Below, one piece after another: positions 1,494 through 17,289 of a DNA stretch of 32,354 bases (positions within the stretch are counted from its first letter, which is position 1; each line of letters opens with the position of its first letter). Under the pieces are notes generated by a model. That model was not told the origin of the DNA, did no database searches, and saw nothing but the letters and a program-made list of their open reading frames with translations. Source of the stretch: Fusobacteriota bacterium (GTDB taxonomy: Bacteria; Fusobacteriota; Fusobacteriia; Fusobacteriales; JAAYPW01); assembly GCA_012519615.1 (NCBI GenBank), contig JAAYPW010000129.1, forward strand, positions 1 to 32,354, written 5' to 3'. Position numbers and translations under genes: made by a program.

Positions 1494-1508
1494 TATATAA
1501 ATAAATTT

Positions 1509-1702
1509 ACTGGACTGTGCGATGTAAGTACTTAAACTGAATTTTGGCCTACGTTAAATTTAATGGGAACTGGCTCTGTATCGGTAGCTCAGATCAGTCA
1601 CGATAGCAAACTATTGTTATACGGACCCTGTATGCCTTTATATTCTGGAACCCCCTTGTGAAAACAAGGACCAAAATTCCGTACTACATACGGCAGTCCG
1701 GT
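1509..1702 (+). ncRNA. ssrS: Structured RNA, probable 6S RNA
   Basis: This ~194-nt stretch has no credible long frame and is visibly richer in G and C than its surroundings. It folds as one long rod. A closing stem pairs 1509-1531 with 1681-1702, with G-U pairs and small bulges. An inner 9-bp stem pairs 1539-1547 (GAATTTTGG) with 1671-1679. A large open central region follows, whose 3' side carries a perfect 6-bp hairpin with a GAAA loop (1654-1669). An apical arm uses 1576-1587 with 1611-1624. Closing stem, central bubble with a 3'-side hairpin, and terminal arm is the architecture of 6S RNA, the RNA that sequesters housekeeping RNA polymerase, and the length fits. It lacks the marks of RNase P RNA, SRP RNA and tmRNA. 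The strand and identity are inferred from folding by eye; another structured RNA is possible. Confidence 0.6.
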
Positions 1703-1724
1703 TTTAGTAAAAAAGATAAAATGA

Positions 1725-3968: not shown

Positions 3969-6900
3969 ATGAAGAAAATATTAATTATTGTGTTTGCACT
4001 AATATCTTTTTTAGCATTTGCAGAAGGGATGTTAATTGAGGCTGTGGCAGATGAAGCAAATATAAGTTTCGAGGATGAAGAATTCTCTGCTAATGGAGGA
4101 CTTAAAGCTCAATATGAAGATGTAAAAATTCAAGCAAATAGAATAAAAAAAGTTAAAGATAAAAATATAATTATTGCTTATGATAAAATTTTATTTAGTC
4201 AACAAGATCAAAATATAGAAGCTGATGAGTTAAGACTTAGATTAGATGATAAAGTTGCCATTGTAAAAGATGGTAAATCATTTACAAAAGTAAGTGGCGA
4301 AGCAAAAGCTCCACATGATAGATTATTTTATGGTGGAGAAAAATTTGAAGCGAGATTTCCTAATAAAGCTATAGTTAAAAATGGATATTTTTCAACATGT
4401 AGTAATATTATTGAGGATAAAAATAGTGCTGATTACAGGATTGAATCTAAAAAAATAGTTGTATATATTGGTAAAAGAGTTGTTGCGTACAATTCATTTC
4501 TGTATATTAAAAAAATACCTGTATTATGGTTTCCGGTATATGTAACCTCACTAAAAAGTAGTGTAGATGGAGCACCTCTATTTCCTAGATTTGGTTCAGA
4601 TAAAGACGGTAGCTATGTAATATGGGGGCTAGATTATGGTGAAGATGATTCGAAATATCTAAATGGAAGTGCTGCTGTAAAATGGAGTACGAAAAAAGGC
4701 TGGGTACTAGATAGCTGGCATAACGCTTATACTATTGAAAAGGGGAAAAATGCAGGGGTAACATCATTTAGAGATACCTATTTATGGCCAAAAGAGGGGT
4801 ATGATAAAGAGTGGAAATTTACCCATACACATAGTTATTCAAGTAATAATGGTCAATTAGATTGGGAATATCAAAATAATAGTACAAGCTCATTAAATGA
4901 TGATACAAAAAAATATTTAAATGAAAAGGGGCAATCTGAAGAAAAAAAAGTATCAATTTATAAATTAAAGTCAAATTTTACAAAGGTTCCAACACTTTTT
5001 CCACCGTTTATACTAAATCCAATACTAAAAAAATATCCGTCATTTGAAGATTATGCTAAAAATGGTGAGTATTCTATTATGACAAATGTTGAGTGGACAG
5101 ATGAAGAAGATGTTATGCGTGAAATTGGAAATAAACAAGATGATGATGGTGAAGACCAAATTGTAGGTTATGTAAAACCAGATAGAAAAATCCTTTTAGA
5201 GGGAAAATTAGATAAGAGAGAGAAACAAGATAGATATGACTATTCATTATATTATAAGAGATTAAAGGATTTAAATCCAGGTAATAGTGTAAATGATACA
5301 GCTTCTTATGATAGAACTCAAAGATATAGCTTAAATTTAAAAAAATATAAAGTTAGCTTAGGATATGAAAGTATTGATAAGGATGAATATAGAACGCTAA
5401 GTACTATTGAACGAGAAGCACTACGTCGTGTAGAAAGGGATTCTATTACAAATGAAATTATAGAAAATACATCTGGTGAAGCGATCTATCTTAATCCTAA
5501 TTATAAAGATATTGAAACAGTAAAAAGATATGATATTATAAAAAATGAAAATTATAAAATTAATATTGGTAGTTATGAAATATTTAAAACAGGACTTAAA
5601 TGGAATGCTGGATACAGTAATACAGAAAGTGTAAAAAAATTAAATGGGGATAGCTATATAGATGCAGAAGGTGAAGTAAAATATTTCAATGATTATCATG
5701 AAACAGGTGTAATTACAGAAGAAGGAAATAATAATCTTACATATAATTTAGGGTTTAATTACTCTAAAACTAGTCTAGGGCTTAATTATAGTGAAGTGGA
5801 AAGTTATACAAAAAAGAACTCTGAATTAGAGGGGATGCCACAAGAGAATATATCAGAAACATTTAAACAATATGGTGGTAGAATATCAAATAGAGATATT
5901 GACTTGAAAAAATACGGTACATTAGGATTAACATATGAATACGCAAAAGATATATTTAAGGAAAAAGATGAGAGATATAAAAATCATTATGATATCGGTT
6001 ATGGAAAAGAACTATATAATAATATAGGCGATCCTTATAGTCCATTTGATTTAAAATTAAATAATCAGGTTGGATATAAATATACTGTATATACATATGA
6101 TTTAGCTAAAAGGGAAGAAGACACCACGGACAGCACAAAAACAAAAGAAGCATATATGAAAGAAAGATTAAATAGTAGTTATAGAATGAATAAAGTGTAC
6201 ACAGATACGTTAACCACAGACTTAGGAAATACTAGAACTACTTATAATTTCACATTAGATGAATCATATAACGGGTATTACTATGCTTTAGATGATTTAG
6301 AATTATTAGAAAGTAGAAACTTAAATAATAATGTTACATTTAATATTGATAATAAGAAATATTTCTATTTTTCTGTGGCAAATTCAGATAATTACAATGA
6401 GCGTTCACCAAAAAAACCAGCATTTAAAAATAGAGATTCTGATGTGTATACGTATGAATTACATGATGAGAGATATGGTAAATTTACATATAGCACAAGT
6501 AATGTAATTTCAAAAACAGAAAAAGTATCTATATCAAATCCAGATGATACCTATATGAGTGCAAGAACTAAGACACTAGGAGATAAATATGGGTATAGTT
6601 TTAAAGATTGGACTCTTAATTATTCTGATTCAAATACTCGTGGAAGAAATTATGATGAAAATGGGGATCCTTTAGAAAATACAGAAACAATAAAAACAAA
6701 TATCACTTCAAAAAATACAAAAGTTTTAGGAGTTGTATTTAATCATGGTGAGATAATAAATAGAAATATATCATTTGATTATGAGATATACAGAGATAAA
6801 ATGCAGAAAATAAATGATAAAAATACTTTAAAATTTAATCTAAGATTTACTGATAAAAGAGACGAGTTGGAAGAACAAATAGATAAAATAAAAAATAGAT

Positions 6901-7598
6901 ATGTTGATGAAGAAAATCAAGATAAATTTGTATTAACAGAGAAAGAACGTAATAAAATACTTGAAATGTTAATGGAAGAAAATAAAAATGATCTTAATTT
7001 TAATTTAATAGGTGCATTGGAACAAGCAAGTAATGACTCAAAAACAAAACTAGGAAAATTAAAAGAATATAAAATAGAATTGGAATTAGTAAACTACGAA
7101 GATTATAGAAAAAAACATGATTATGGTTCTAGTATGAGTAATTTAGTGGCAGGATGGAGTGTTCTATATCATCAATTTTTCTTCTCATATAAATATACAC
7201 AAGCAAAGGATCCATTTTATAAAAAATCTGTTACAACTCCAGATGCACATTACCATTATACAAAAAGATTACATTACAATGAAGGTAGATATAGCTTTGG
7301 TAAAAATAATAGTTGGAATGTTAAATATAATATGCATTTTGATGACTCTATTAAAGATAGAAAAAATTTAAGTTCATCAAAAAATAAAAAATTAAAAAAA
7401 TATGAGATTGGTGTAGAAAAATATTTCCATTGTACACTTTTAGGGTTAACTTATAGTCAAGAACTTGTTGATGAAGGGATATATGAGACACTATGGACAT
7501 TTAAATTCGGATTACTTACTTTCCCAGAGAAAAAATTAGGATTACAAAGAACAAGAAGTGATGGAGAGTACACTATAGAACAGTACTTAGGTATGTAG
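3969..7598 (+). CDS. lptD: LPS-assembly outer-membrane protein LptD, extra long
   Basis: LptD is the outer-membrane barrel that inserts lipopolysaccharide into the outer leaflet. The N-terminus is a clear signal peptide (MKKILIIVFALISFLAF, cleavage likely after AFA at residues 16-18). An OstA/LptA-like beta-jellyroll domain follows (about 20-150), with repeated features such as ANGGLKAQYEDV and IEADELRL. The barrel onset has the typical IPVLWFPVY segment. The rest is aromatic-rich, alternating strands to a C-terminal end. At 1209 residues it is far longer than the usual 650-900, the excess being charged loop-like stretches (for example about residues 985-1025). Only two cysteines exist, C144 at the end of the N-terminal domain and C1155 near the C-terminus. 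SD GGAGG precedes ATG. The LptD call is strong; the substrate LPS type is unknown. Confidence 0.88.
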   Translation: MKKILIIVFALISFLAFAEGMLIEAVADEANISFEDEEFSANGGLKAQYEDVKIQANRIKKVKDKNIIIAYDKILFSQQDQNIEADELRLRLDDKVAIVKDGKSFTKVSGEAKAPHDRLFYGGEKFEARFPNKAIVKNGYFSTCSNIIEDKNSADYRIESKKIVVYIGKRVVAYNSFLYIKKIPVLWFPVYVTSLKSSVDGAPLFPRFGSDKDGSYVIWGLDYGEDDSKYLNGSAAVKWSTKKGWVLDSWHNAYTIEKGKNAGVTSFRDTYLWPKEGYDKEWKFTHTHSYSSNNGQLDWEYQNNSTSSLNDDTKKYLNEKGQSEEKKVSIYKLKSNFTKVPTLFPPFILNPILKKYPSFEDYAKNGEYSIMTNVEWTDEEDVMREIGNKQDDDGEDQIVGYVKPDRKILLEGKLDKREKQDRYDYSLYYKRLKDLNPGNSVNDTASYDRTQRYSLNLKKYKVSLGYESIDKDEYRTLSTIEREALRRVERDSITNEIIENTSGEAIYLNPNYKDIETVKRYDIIKNENYKINIGSYEIFKTGLKWNAGYSNTESVKKLNGDSYIDAEGEVKYFNDYHETGVITEEGNNNLTYNLGFNYSKTSLGLNYSEVESYTKKNSELEGMPQENISETFKQYGGRISNRDIDLKKYGTLGLTYEYAKDIFKEKDERYKNHYDIGYGKELYNNIGDPYSPFDLKLNNQVGYKYTVYTYDLAKREEDTTDSTKTKEAYMKERLNSSYRMNKVYTDTLTTDLGNTRTTYNFTLDESYNGYYYALDDLELLESRNLNNNVTFNIDNKKYFYFSVANSDNYNERSPKKPAFKNRDSDVYTYELHDERYGKFTYSTSNVISKTEKVSISNPDDTYMSARTKTLGDKYGYSFKDWTLNYSDSNTRGRNYDENGDPLENTETIKTNITSKNTKVLGVVFNHGEIINRNISFDYEIYRDKMQKINDKNTLKFNLRFTDKRDELEEQIDKIKNRYVDEENQDKFVLTEKERNKILEMLMEENKNDLNFNLIGALEQASNDSKTKLGKLKEYKIELELVNYEDYRKKHDYGSSMSNLVAGWSVLYHQFFFSYKYTQAKDPFYKKSVTTPDAHYHYTKRLHYNEGRYSFGKNNSWNVKYNMHFDDSIKDRKNLSSSKNKKLKKYEIGVEKYFHCTLLGLTYSQELVDEGIYETLWTFKFGLLTFPEKKLGLQRTRSDGEYTIEQYLGM

Positions 7599-13514: not shown

Positions 13515-13709
13515 GAAAGAATATTCAAAAAATGGAAATGCAATTATAGTTTTCTTAATGAAATCTTTGGTAAAAGATCTTCTTTTGAGGATTATAAAAT
13601 TCTCATGTTTAAGGATTTTGATAAAATCAAAATTTATCCTATGTATAAATGTAGTAAGTTTGTAATTTTAAGAAATTATATACAGAAAATTATTAATATT
13701 TATAAATAA
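13515..13709 (+). pseudogene. C-terminal fragment of an unrecognised protein
   Basis: A 64-codon frame without a start codon context runs from just after a stop at 13512-13514 to TAA at 13707-13709. Its sequence is protein-like (FLNEIFGKRSSFEDYKIL, FDKIKIYPMYKCSKFVIL). It has no ribosome-binding site and begins abruptly, so it looks like the tail of a lost gene, perhaps the same locus as the decayed frame before it. No family is recognised. Confidence 0.4.
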
Positions 13710-13752
13710 TCTATGAATAATTATGTGTTATATAAAAAAAGGGATGGTAAAA

Positions 13753-16700
13753 ATGGTTAAAAAATTTATTTTTCTTATGCTAATGATCATAGTTTTATTA
13801 GGATGTGGTGGTGGAGGTAGCAATAATGAAGATAACAATAATAAAACTGATATTAATACTCCATATATATTAATTTCAGAAAAAAATACAGTTATAGCTA
13901 ATAACAAAGACTCAATAAAATTTAAAATTTATGATAAAAACAGTGATACTTACATTGAAAAATTTCAATTATATGTTAATGGTGGACTTTATGATAGTAA
14001 CTATTTTGTAACAGAAAAAGATGGTTATTTTGAAGTATATGGTGTCTACAATAATGAAAAAACAAATAAAATAACTGTAACAGGATATTATTTAAATAAT
14101 CCCAGTTGGGAACTAAATGAAACTATAAATATTAATACTGTAAATGGGGAGATAAATTATAAAAATATCAAGTTAGAATTAAGTACAATGGATGGAAATG
14201 TAGATATTTATAGTGGTGATAGTGAATGGGAGTATAAAAATACTGAAATAATAAGTCCAGTTTTGTTTACATATAAAGATTCTGCAAAATTAGAGAATAC
14301 AAAGGTAAAAATTAAATTAGATAAAGAATACGATAATGTAACTGTGTTTTTAGGTACATATGGAAATTTATATTCATACAATCAAACTAGTTTATCATAT
14401 GTGCCGATTTTAGATGCAACAATTATTGGAAATGAGATCACTTTTACAATAAATATAGGTAATGTAGAGAAAAAAATAAAAAGAGATAATACAGGTAATG
14501 ATAATAAAATAGTAATTGCTGTGGCAGCTGAGGAAAATATAGTTGAAACGCCACGATTTACATACGTAGGGCCATATGGAAAGGCTATAACAGATAAAAT
14601 GACAACAACATTAAATAATGCATTTAGAGTATTTATAGAAAAATTAGATATTTCAGAAAATTTAGTAAATGAGGCTTGGACAACCCCTTTAACTATTAAA
14701 ATAATGGAAACTAAAGATACTGCAACCTATGTAGGTAGTCCATATGGTAGAAAATACGATGTTATTGAAGTTGGATATGATGCATTTAGAAACGGGATGT
14801 TAGATATAGCACTTACACATGAATTTTTCCATTTTATACAGTCATGTTATGAGGGAAGTATGGCAAATATAGTATCTAGTGATTATAAATGGATAGATGA
14901 AGCAACTGCAATTACAATTGAAGGCTTAATGAAAAATGACTTAGGTTATGTTGCTGATTTAGCAGAAAATAATAAATATTTTTTTGTACAGGGATTATCA
15001 TGTGGAGATAAAGAAGTAGATGCATATAACGGAGACTTAGGTGTACATGGATATGGAGCTTCATTTTTCATAAGATATCTGGTAAAAAAAGCAGGTGACT
15101 ATAAAATTATAGGGAGAATATATAATGCTATAAATAATCAATCTATAACAGAGATCTCCTCTATAAATGCTTTGAAAACAGCTATTAGTGAGACATTAGA
15201 TAAGGGGATAGAGGTTATATATAAGGAATTTATAGATGAGATATTTAGTGATAAAATGGGTAGCGATTTCATAAGAACAATTGATAATATTGATAATTTC
15301 ACCACAAATAAAAATTATAAATTTTTAATAAAAAAAGATGGAACAAGAAGATTTGAAGACAAAAGAGCTTTTCCCGAATTATCAACTTTTGTATATAAAA
15401 TAAAAGTAGCAAGTAAAGACGTATTGGAAATAGATAAAAATAGTATTCTTAGAGTTAAATACGAGGTCTTAGAAGATAAAAATGATACATTTAATATTAA
15501 AATAATTGGAGGAAATAAAAAAATAATTACAGATAAAAAAATAAATAATAAATTAGAGATAGAAAATTTTGAAAAACATTTAGGTGAGGAGTTATTTTTA
15601 ATAGTAAGTAATCTAAATACAACAGATAAAAATAGCGAAATTACAAATATTAATTTAAATATATCAATACCACCAATTGTAAAAAGTATATCAAAGGATT
15701 CTATATATTCTGGTGAAAAAGTAAAAATAAATGGCTATAATTACGGTAATATACAAAATAATGGTAAAATTCTATTAGGAAATAATGAGATAACTAAAGT
15801 AGTATCTTGGTCAAACAATGAGATAGAATTGGAGATACCAGATACAATTGATTCAGGCGAATATAGAGTAAAAGTATCAGCATATAATATGGAAAGTGAG
15901 GAGGAGATATATTTAAATATAATTAGTGATAAAGTTGAATTTGATGATGCAGGATTTGAAGAGCTAGTAAGATATACAATTGGAAAACCAACAGGTATCA
16001 TTACACCGGATGATATGAAAAAAATACAATTTTTAGATGATGAACACTATGATATACAATCAATAAAAGGTGTGGAGTACTGTGAAAATCTAGTTAAATT
16101 AAATATAAGACAAGGATATTCTAACAAAACAAATATAGAAAATATATCATATATAAAAAAATTAAAAAAACTAAAAATATTGGGACTAACAGGAAATATT
16201 AATAATCTATCAGATTTAAACGAACTTACTAATATTGAAAGACTTATTTTAGATGGTACAACTGCAAGTGATATATCAGTAGTAAAAAACATGAAAAACC
16301 TTGTAGAATTTGCATTATATGATGGTATGATAGCAGTAGGTGGGAGAACTTTAGATAGTTTAGATCCGTTAAGAGAACTAACAAAATTAGAAGATTTATA
16401 TATTTCTAATTATAATATAAAAGATATATCACCATTAATAAATTTAGTAAATATAAAATATTTAGCATTTAGAGAAAATAATATAGAAAATATTGATGCT
16501 TTAGTAAATATGAAAAATTTGGAGACGTTAACTTTATATAAAAATAAGGTTAAAGATATTGAAAGTCTAAGAGATAAACCCAAATTAAGACATTTAGATT
16601 TTATGTATAATGAAGTAACTGATTCTTCTGTAATTGAGACGTTAACAGCTTTACGCTATTTAGATGCTTCAAATAATCATATAGTAAAATTTCCAAATTT

Positions 16701-17235
16701 ATCTATGTGTAAGGAATTAACAAATTTTAAATTTGAGTATAATATGATAACAGATATTACGGAAATATCAAAATTAAATTCAATACAATATCTAAATATA
16801 TATTTTAATCAATTAACTACATTAGATATCACAGAAAAAATGGATACGGTAACAAGTTTAGCTGTATTTAATAATCAACTGGTAAATTTAAATAGTGTAT
16901 CTAAATTAGAGAATTTAGTAAGTATTAATGCATCAAATAATAAAATTGTAGATATTTCAGATATTAAAAATCTAAAAAAACTTAAAACAATTAATTTAGA
17001 AAATAACAATCTTTCGGATATTTCAATATTAGAAGATATTATGACTTTAGAAAATGTGCGATTAAAGGGAAATGAATACCTATATACAGAGGAAAAATTA
17101 TATAGTGAAAATGGGAAACACACAGATCAAAATGGTAAATACGATTATATTGATACAAAAAATGGTCGTGTCATAAAAATATTAGAAGAACGTGGGTGTA
17201 AAGTAGAATATAATTACAAATTAAAAAAAGATTAG
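13753..17235 (+). CDS. Lipoprotein with HExxH (gluzincin-like), IPT/TIG and internalin-type LRR domains
   Basis: This 1160-residue surface lipoprotein has no family name I know. The N-terminus is a lipoprotein signal (VKKFIFLMLMIIVLLGCGGGG), with the lipid-bearing Cys at about 18 and a Gly/Asn/Asp linker. A beta-rich region leads to a metalloprotease-like site, H356-E-F-F-H360, with WIDEATA placing E383 as a likely third zinc ligand, 22 residues on. This is gluzincin spacing. An IPT/TIG domain covers about 640-722. An internalin-type cap (FEELVRYTIGKPTG, about 726-778) precedes roughly 15 leucine-rich repeats of about 22 residues (about 779-1110; for example KLEDLYISNYNIKDISPLINL). ATG 13753 is chosen over earlier in-frame starts (13723, 13744) for its AGGG and a compact signal peptide. 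It is likely outer-membrane or periplasm anchored. It stands alone behind a region of decayed genes. Confidence 0.85.
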   Translation: MVKKFIFLMLMIIVLLGCGGGGSNNEDNNNKTDINTPYILISEKNTVIANNKDSIKFKIYDKNSDTYIEKFQLYVNGGLYDSNYFVTEKDGYFEVYGVYNNEKTNKITVTGYYLNNPSWELNETININTVNGEINYKNIKLELSTMDGNVDIYSGDSEWEYKNTEIISPVLFTYKDSAKLENTKVKIKLDKEYDNVTVFLGTYGNLYSYNQTSLSYVPILDATIIGNEITFTINIGNVEKKIKRDNTGNDNKIVIAVAAEENIVETPRFTYVGPYGKAITDKMTTTLNNAFRVFIEKLDISENLVNEAWTTPLTIKIMETKDTATYVGSPYGRKYDVIEVGYDAFRNGMLDIALTHEFFHFIQSCYEGSMANIVSSDYKWIDEATAITIEGLMKNDLGYVADLAENNKYFFVQGLSCGDKEVDAYNGDLGVHGYGASFFIRYLVKKAGDYKIIGRIYNAINNQSITEISSINALKTAISETLDKGIEVIYKEFIDEIFSDKMGSDFIRTIDNIDNFTTNKNYKFLIKKDGTRRFEDKRAFPELSTFVYKIKVASKDVLEIDKNSILRVKYEVLEDKNDTFNIKIIGGNKKIITDKKINNKLEIENFEKHLGEELFLIVSNLNTTDKNSEITNINLNISIPPIVKSISKDSIYSGEKVKINGYNYGNIQNNGKILLGNNEITKVVSWSNNEIELEIPDTIDSGEYRVKVSAYNMESEEEIYLNIISDKVEFDDAGFEELVRYTIGKPTGIITPDDMKKIQFLDDEHYDIQSIKGVEYCENLVKLNIRQGYSNKTNIENISYIKKLKKLKILGLTGNINNLSDLNELTNIERLILDGTTASDISVVKNMKNLVEFALYDGMIAVGGRTLDSLDPLRELTKLEDLYISNYNIKDISPLINLVNIKYLAFRENNIENIDALVNMKNLETLTLYKNKVKDIESLRDKPKLRHLDFMYNEVTDSSVIETLTALRYLDASNNHIVKFPNLSMCKELTNFKFEYNMITDITEISKLNSIQYLNIYFNQLTTLDITEKMDTVTSLAVFNNQLVNLNSVSKLENLVSINASNNKIVDISDIKNLKKLKTINLENNNLSDISILEDIMTLENVRLKGNEYLYTEEKLYSENGKHTDQNGKYDYIDTKNGRVIKILEERGCKVEYNYKLKKD

Positions 17236-17259: not shown

Positions 17260-17289
17260 TTGACAAATAACTTCAAAATATGCTATAAT
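17260..17289 (+). promoter_or_regulatory. Strong promoter for the cold-shock-domain gene
   Basis: TTGACA (17260-17265), an 18-base spacer, and TATAAT (17284-17289) with an extended -10 (TGCTATAAT). It leaves a leader of about 55 bases before the start codon. Confidence 0.85.

Follow-up and report, generated by a model that had tools for sequence, protein, structure and literature searches.

Analysis of the window, the 32,354-nucleotide stretch of DNA studied here, identified an intact gene for a predicted lipoprotein that joins a putative zinc metallopeptidase domain to an internalin-type leucine-rich repeat (LRR) arm. Both parts are of known kinds, and their combination was found in no other protein searched. 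One possibility is a protease with a built-in binding arm by which it selects its target.

The Gene and Its Genomic Neighborhood

The window is contig C54 of a source assembly of 1.80 Mb that is 97.9% complete. An open reading frame at 13723..17235 (+) is uninterrupted across 1170 codons. ATG 13753 is the preferred start based on the GGGATGG just upstream and on the N-terminus that results, MVKKFIFLMLMIIVLLGC, which comprises the signal peptide, lipobox, and Cys characteristic of bacterial lipoproteins. Specifically, C18 follows LLG and CGGGG begins at residue 18, in agreement with the lipobox and CGGGG of the original prediction. The gene is confirmed to be real, intact, and correctly described in that prediction. 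Its features are listed in Table 1.

Table 1. Features of the lipoprotein gene and the basis on which each was assigned (coordinates refer to the window).
Feature	Coordinates	Strand	Basis
Whole gene, putative zinc metallopeptidase lipoprotein with TIG and internalin-type LRRs, 1160 aa	13753..17235	+	Intact ORF, RBS 5' of ATG
Lipoprotein signal peptide, lipobox LLGC, predicted lipidated Cys18	13753..13806	+	Direct from sequence
Ig-like stalk domain, residues ~35-128	13855..14136	+	Also detected by profile A3 in L016, L006, L034, and G001 loci
Region 2 ahead of peptidase, residues ~129-245, probably beta-rich	14137..14487	+	Unmatched in Pfam; assigned from sequence
Putative gluzincin-like metallopeptidase domain, residues ~246-540	14488..15372	+	NF045524 at 342-495; hhalign to M30 core
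HEFFH, residues 356-360; predicted zinc ligands H356 and H360, predicted general base E357	14818..14832	+	Aligns with HEFQH/HEFTH of relatives
WIDEATA, residues 380-386; third zinc ligand predicted to be E383	14890..14910	+	Aligns with WIDE/WLNE of relatives and lugdulysin
Y434, candidate catalytic tyrosine	15052..15054	+	Invariant column of alignments A1 and A4; at or next to lugdulysin Y315
Region after peptidase, residues 541-640, probably beta-rich (inferred)	15373..15672	+	No family match
IPT/TIG domain, residues 641-711	15673..15885	+	Pfam PF01833 over cut-off
Internalin-type N-terminal cap, residues ~727-779	15931..16089	+	Internalin models match from ~728 or 751
15 leucine-rich repeats, residues 780-1120	16090..17112	+	Pfam, PDB phmmer, register count, fold comparison
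C-terminal tail, end motif IKILEERGCKVEY	17113..17232	+	Common to other LRR proteins of the genome (L003-L006)

Upstream of the gene are a dnaJ-like gene, recR, and purU (opposite strand), and downstream are cspA, a gene for a membrane protein, yceD, plsX, and fabH. Because cspA has its own promoter of perfect consensus (17260-17289), the lipoprotein gene is probably monocistronic; no operon able to name a substrate was apparent around it. The GC3 of the gene (0.134) is typical of neighboring genes, and a horizontal origin by composition was therefore rejected. A mobile or phage origin was likewise rejected, given no PHROG match and housekeeping genes on both flanks.

The upstream gap of ~700 bp holds a startless frame of 64 codons at 13515-13709 (+). 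Two stretches on other contigs (C103 and C38), each interrupted by stops, are weakly similar to this frame (E 0.006 and 0.07), which is possibly the remnant of a repeated element. The original prediction had placed the gene next to decayed genes. That description would apply to this possible remnant, but all other family-matched neighbors are intact housekeeping genes.

Two further features of the window were noted. A 6S RNA is located at 1504-1708 (+), between aspS and hydF (Rfam RF00013, 46.7 bits, barely above the gathering score). At 3969-7598 (+) is encoded a 1209-residue protein with a signal peptide and no family match in Pfam or NCBIfam; by eye, it resembles LptD/OstA, involved in LPS assembly, which would suit a diderm envelope.

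The Predicted Peptidase Domain

HEFFH and WIDEATA, with its E383, occur at the residues given for them in the original prediction. HEFFH and E383, which aligns with the Glu in the WIDE/WLNE of relatives, together constitute the gluzincin motif of clan MA as judged from the sequence. Shuffling of the protein's own letters generated an HExxH in 0.4% of cases, and an HExxH with [WY]-hydrophobic-x-E 15-40 residues downstream in 0.015%. The same stretch was matched by NCBIfam model NF045524 (MXAN_6640 putative metalloprotease) over 154 residues (E 4e-9). What is common to the two is this HExxH stretch; the match spans only model positions 103-240 of 290, and its score (36.5 bits for the whole protein and 38.8 bits for the domain alone) is far under the curated cut-off of 140 bits. 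To our knowledge, no member of the MXAN_6640 family has been characterized, and a literature search for the name MXAN_6640 returned no paper.

The domain also resembles M30 peptidases (hyicolysin and lugdulysin, 7bb8) in having, in aligned order, an HExxH, a WhxE located ~20-23 residues downstream, and a Y...F pattern. When aligned with M30-like relatives, it retains H356, E357, H360, W380, E383, E390, and Y434, with E390 and Y434 falling in columns that are invariant among those relatives. Y434 is part of GYGASFF, which begins at residue 433, and its counterpart in lugdulysin is at or next to Y315 (a register uncertain by one residue), which is substituted in the PDB depositors' mutant (E242Q Y315F). 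A profile comprising the window domain and its relatives matched lugdulysin (E 5e-32), although this match is driven by the M30-like rows. The match to lugdulysin, a much shorter chain (410 residues), covers only the peptidase part. The window domain alone, when compared with ten M30-like proteins by hhalign, scored 44.9 versus at most 19.4 for 30 shuffles and 11.7 for the reversed sequence. Masking of the two motifs abolished this match, indicating that the similarity to M30 is at the level of motifs. M30 membership was rejected for the window domain because the Pfam M30 model (PF10460) did not match it at E values up to 10. Pfam returned nothing above cut-off across residues 200-640, and a PDB search with the catalytic domain alone yielded no direct match.

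A single-sequence AlphaFold2 model of residues 235-550 had a pLDDT of about 30.5, which is too low to place the zinc site. This low value, together with the unmatched M30 model and the lack of close relatives found that would reveal selection on the motif, would be compatible with a binding protein that is inactive as a protease and in which the HExxH is degenerate or coincidental. We consider this very improbable, given how rarely HExxH and WIDE co-occur in shuffles, the NF045524 match on the same stretch, and the additional presence of E390 and Y434 in invariant columns. Collectively, these observations suggest that the window domain is probably a clan-MA (gluzincin-like) peptidase that falls outside both M30 and the curated MXAN_6640 family. 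The original claim of a gluzincin protease thus gains from the NF045524 match, the motif-level profile similarity to M30, and the candidate active-site tyrosine, whereas the structure prediction of the zinc site was uninformative. Zinc-peptidase activity of the predicted domain is supported at the level of sequence, and we hold the peptidase step of the proposed function with fair confidence.

The TIG Domain and the Internalin-Type LRR Arm

The region following the peptidase bears out the remainder of the predicted architecture. The IPT/TIG domain scored 22.3 bits against PF01833 (cut-off, 20.9 bits), and the expected internalin-like cap is followed by 15 LRRs by register counting, where about 15 repeats of about 22 residues had been proposed; 12 of the 15 are exactly 22 residues in length. 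The repeats matched Pfam LRR_4 (E 5.5e-25), and their best PDB match by phmmer was internalin A (E 7e-44). The cap and the 22-residue, SDS22-type LRRs are the features of the internalin family, although the curated internalin models were matched at only 116.7 bits versus cut-offs of 1275-1600. A low-confidence model of residues 640-1160 (pLDDT 48), in which the TIG domain is the best-modeled part (about 50-72), returned the same relatives in a fold search, with internalin A the closest, which at this model quality is taken as no more than consistent with the sequence result.

Listeria internalins (InlA, InlB, and InlF) share the SDS22-type 22-residue LRRs and the internalin-type cap with the window protein. 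Internalins have no catalytic domain. The LRR of the window protein, in contrast to that of internalins, is at the C-terminal end of a chain that is predicted to be lipid-tethered. LRRs of the SDS22/internalin type are ordinary in the source genome, which has five LRR_4 loci, most of them ending in a motif resembling that of the window protein.

An Ig-Like Stalk Common to Several Putative Surface Proteins

The N-terminal Ig-like domain is a stalk that is common to several proteins. In the source genome and in Haliovirga abyssi, it recurs on separate chains, most of them lipoproteins, each of which pairs it with a protease of family M30 or C11, with a sulfatase-modifying-factor (FGE-sulfatase) domain, or with LRRs alone, as would be expected if these domains are exchangeable surface tools. 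In the source genome, one Ig-stalk lipoprotein (L016; contig C125, 24-1628, +) has HEFQH and WIDE and matches lugdulysin (7bb8) by PDB phmmer at E 9e-31, yet is under Pfam's M30 cut-off; a search of this genome with PF10460 gave no match at E 0.001. L016 adjoins a tsaD-looking gene. M30 lipoproteins were identified in three other Fusobacteriota genomes, and one Fusobacteriota genome (G079, contig C233) encodes a tandem pair of them (L013/L027).

A second protein of the source genome (L006) comprises only the Ig stalk and LRRs, with an N-terminal hydrophobic segment and no evident lipobox. Three Ig domains are combined with Big_5 and an FGE-sulfatase (SUMF1-like) domain in a third protein (L034; contig C145, 163-2160, -), which has a lipobox. 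The same combination occurs, without an obvious lipobox, in a protein of another genome (L065; G090, genus g21, 169-2073, -). The Ig-stalk profile identified five proteins in G001 (probably Haliovirga abyssi, as the coordinates of its LRR gene agree with plasmid pHIC of that species), including two LRR lipoproteins and one lipoprotein with a C11 clostripain-type cysteine peptidase (L064; 1420-3189, +). The window protein looks like a composite member of this group, built from a local toolkit.

The closest LRR-lipoprotein relatives are in Haliovirga abyssi, a deep-sea isolate of the same order (Fusobacteriales). Its Ig-stalk LRR lipoproteins (L020, L024, and H22 on plasmid pHIC) share the lipobox, this Ig-like domain, and an LRR array with the window protein, but are without a peptidase and without a TIG domain. 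A role as a host adhesin by analogy with internalin was not adopted, given that the same stalk-LRR lipoproteins occur in this organism.

The sharing of a stalk by peptidase-free LRR proteins and LRR-free peptidases in the source genome and Haliovirga could also indicate that the window protein performs two independent jobs on one tether, with the peptidase acting on anything near (nutrition or cell-surface clearing) and the LRR, as an adhesin or a spacer in the structure, having no part in substrate specificity. A precedent is EndoS, whose LRR is flanked by the catalytic domain and the domain that anchors the substrate, and an LRR loop is thought to stabilize a loop of the catalytic domain (PMC10042849). 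EndoS likewise combines an enzyme, an LRR, and an Ig-like domain in one secreted chain, but it is a glycosidase, is secreted without a lipid anchor, and has a different domain order. Fusion of the domains in a single chain favors a functional link between them without proving one, and we view two independent jobs as somewhat unlikely.

Distribution

BLAST-level and profile searches detected no ortholog in 97 other Fusobacteriota genomes, and the sole weak additional profile match was in one genome (G086, E 0.009). Two peptide-pattern scans of genomes from 84,980 species and three of viral contigs identified no relative, with the caveat that exact short patterns may miss distant ones. The catalytic domain was unmatched among plasmids and phages, and a literature search found no paper on a named LRR-metalloprotease lipoprotein. 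The original prediction gave no named family for this domain order, and no other protein with the peptidase and LRR combination was present in the collections searched. The source genome is the sole member of its family among the genomes compared, so the singleton status of the protein may only reflect unsequenced relatives.

This distribution bears on whether the protein instead functions as a periplasmic protease of envelope maturation, with the LRR binding envelope proteins of the cell itself. A periplasmic orientation is possible for lipoproteins, the neighborhood is one of housekeeping genes, and other small LRR proteins also adjoin ordinary genes. Nonetheless, a core envelope function would not be expected to be absent from all other Fusobacteriota searched, and an Ig/TIG/LRR composition is typically seen in exposed proteins. 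We regard a periplasmic role as distinctly unlikely.

Proposed Mechanism

Our preferred reading is of a zinc protease at the cell surface, in which docking of a protein by the LRR arm confines cleavage to the docked partner or its neighbors, a reading that we hold tentatively, at a little short of an even chance. Lipidated Cys18 would tether the protein as an outer-membrane lipoprotein, and the Ig-like domain would lift it away from the membrane. Residues ~246-540 would form the gluzincin-like zinc peptidase, in which H356, H360, and E383 would hold the zinc, E357 would activate water, and Y434 may help to stabilize the transition state. The TIG domain would link the peptidase to the C-terminal, internalin-type LRR arc, and docking of a protein by this arc would limit cleavage to that partner or its neighbors at the cell surface.

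We infer both the surface exposure and the docking by the LRR as the source of specificity, and that the LRR sets specificity has roughly even odds. A host factor is only one possibility for the LRR target, and nothing in the data points to a host. Doubtful, in our judgment, is the fuller proposal that the protein is a surface-tethered zinc protease and the first of its own clan-MA subfamily, with an internalin-type LRR arm that selects one protein for cleavage, and that it exemplifies a design of deep-branching Fusobacteriales in which stalk, enzyme, and reader are exchangeable.

Implications

If the preferred reading is right, the window protein would represent a natural case of cell-surface proteolysis that is aimed by an LRR reader. 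The protein also indicates that surface proteins of some Fusobacteriales are assembled on a common Ig stalk, on which different enzymes (M30, C11, FGE-sulfatase, and the window peptidase) and LRRs are swapped.
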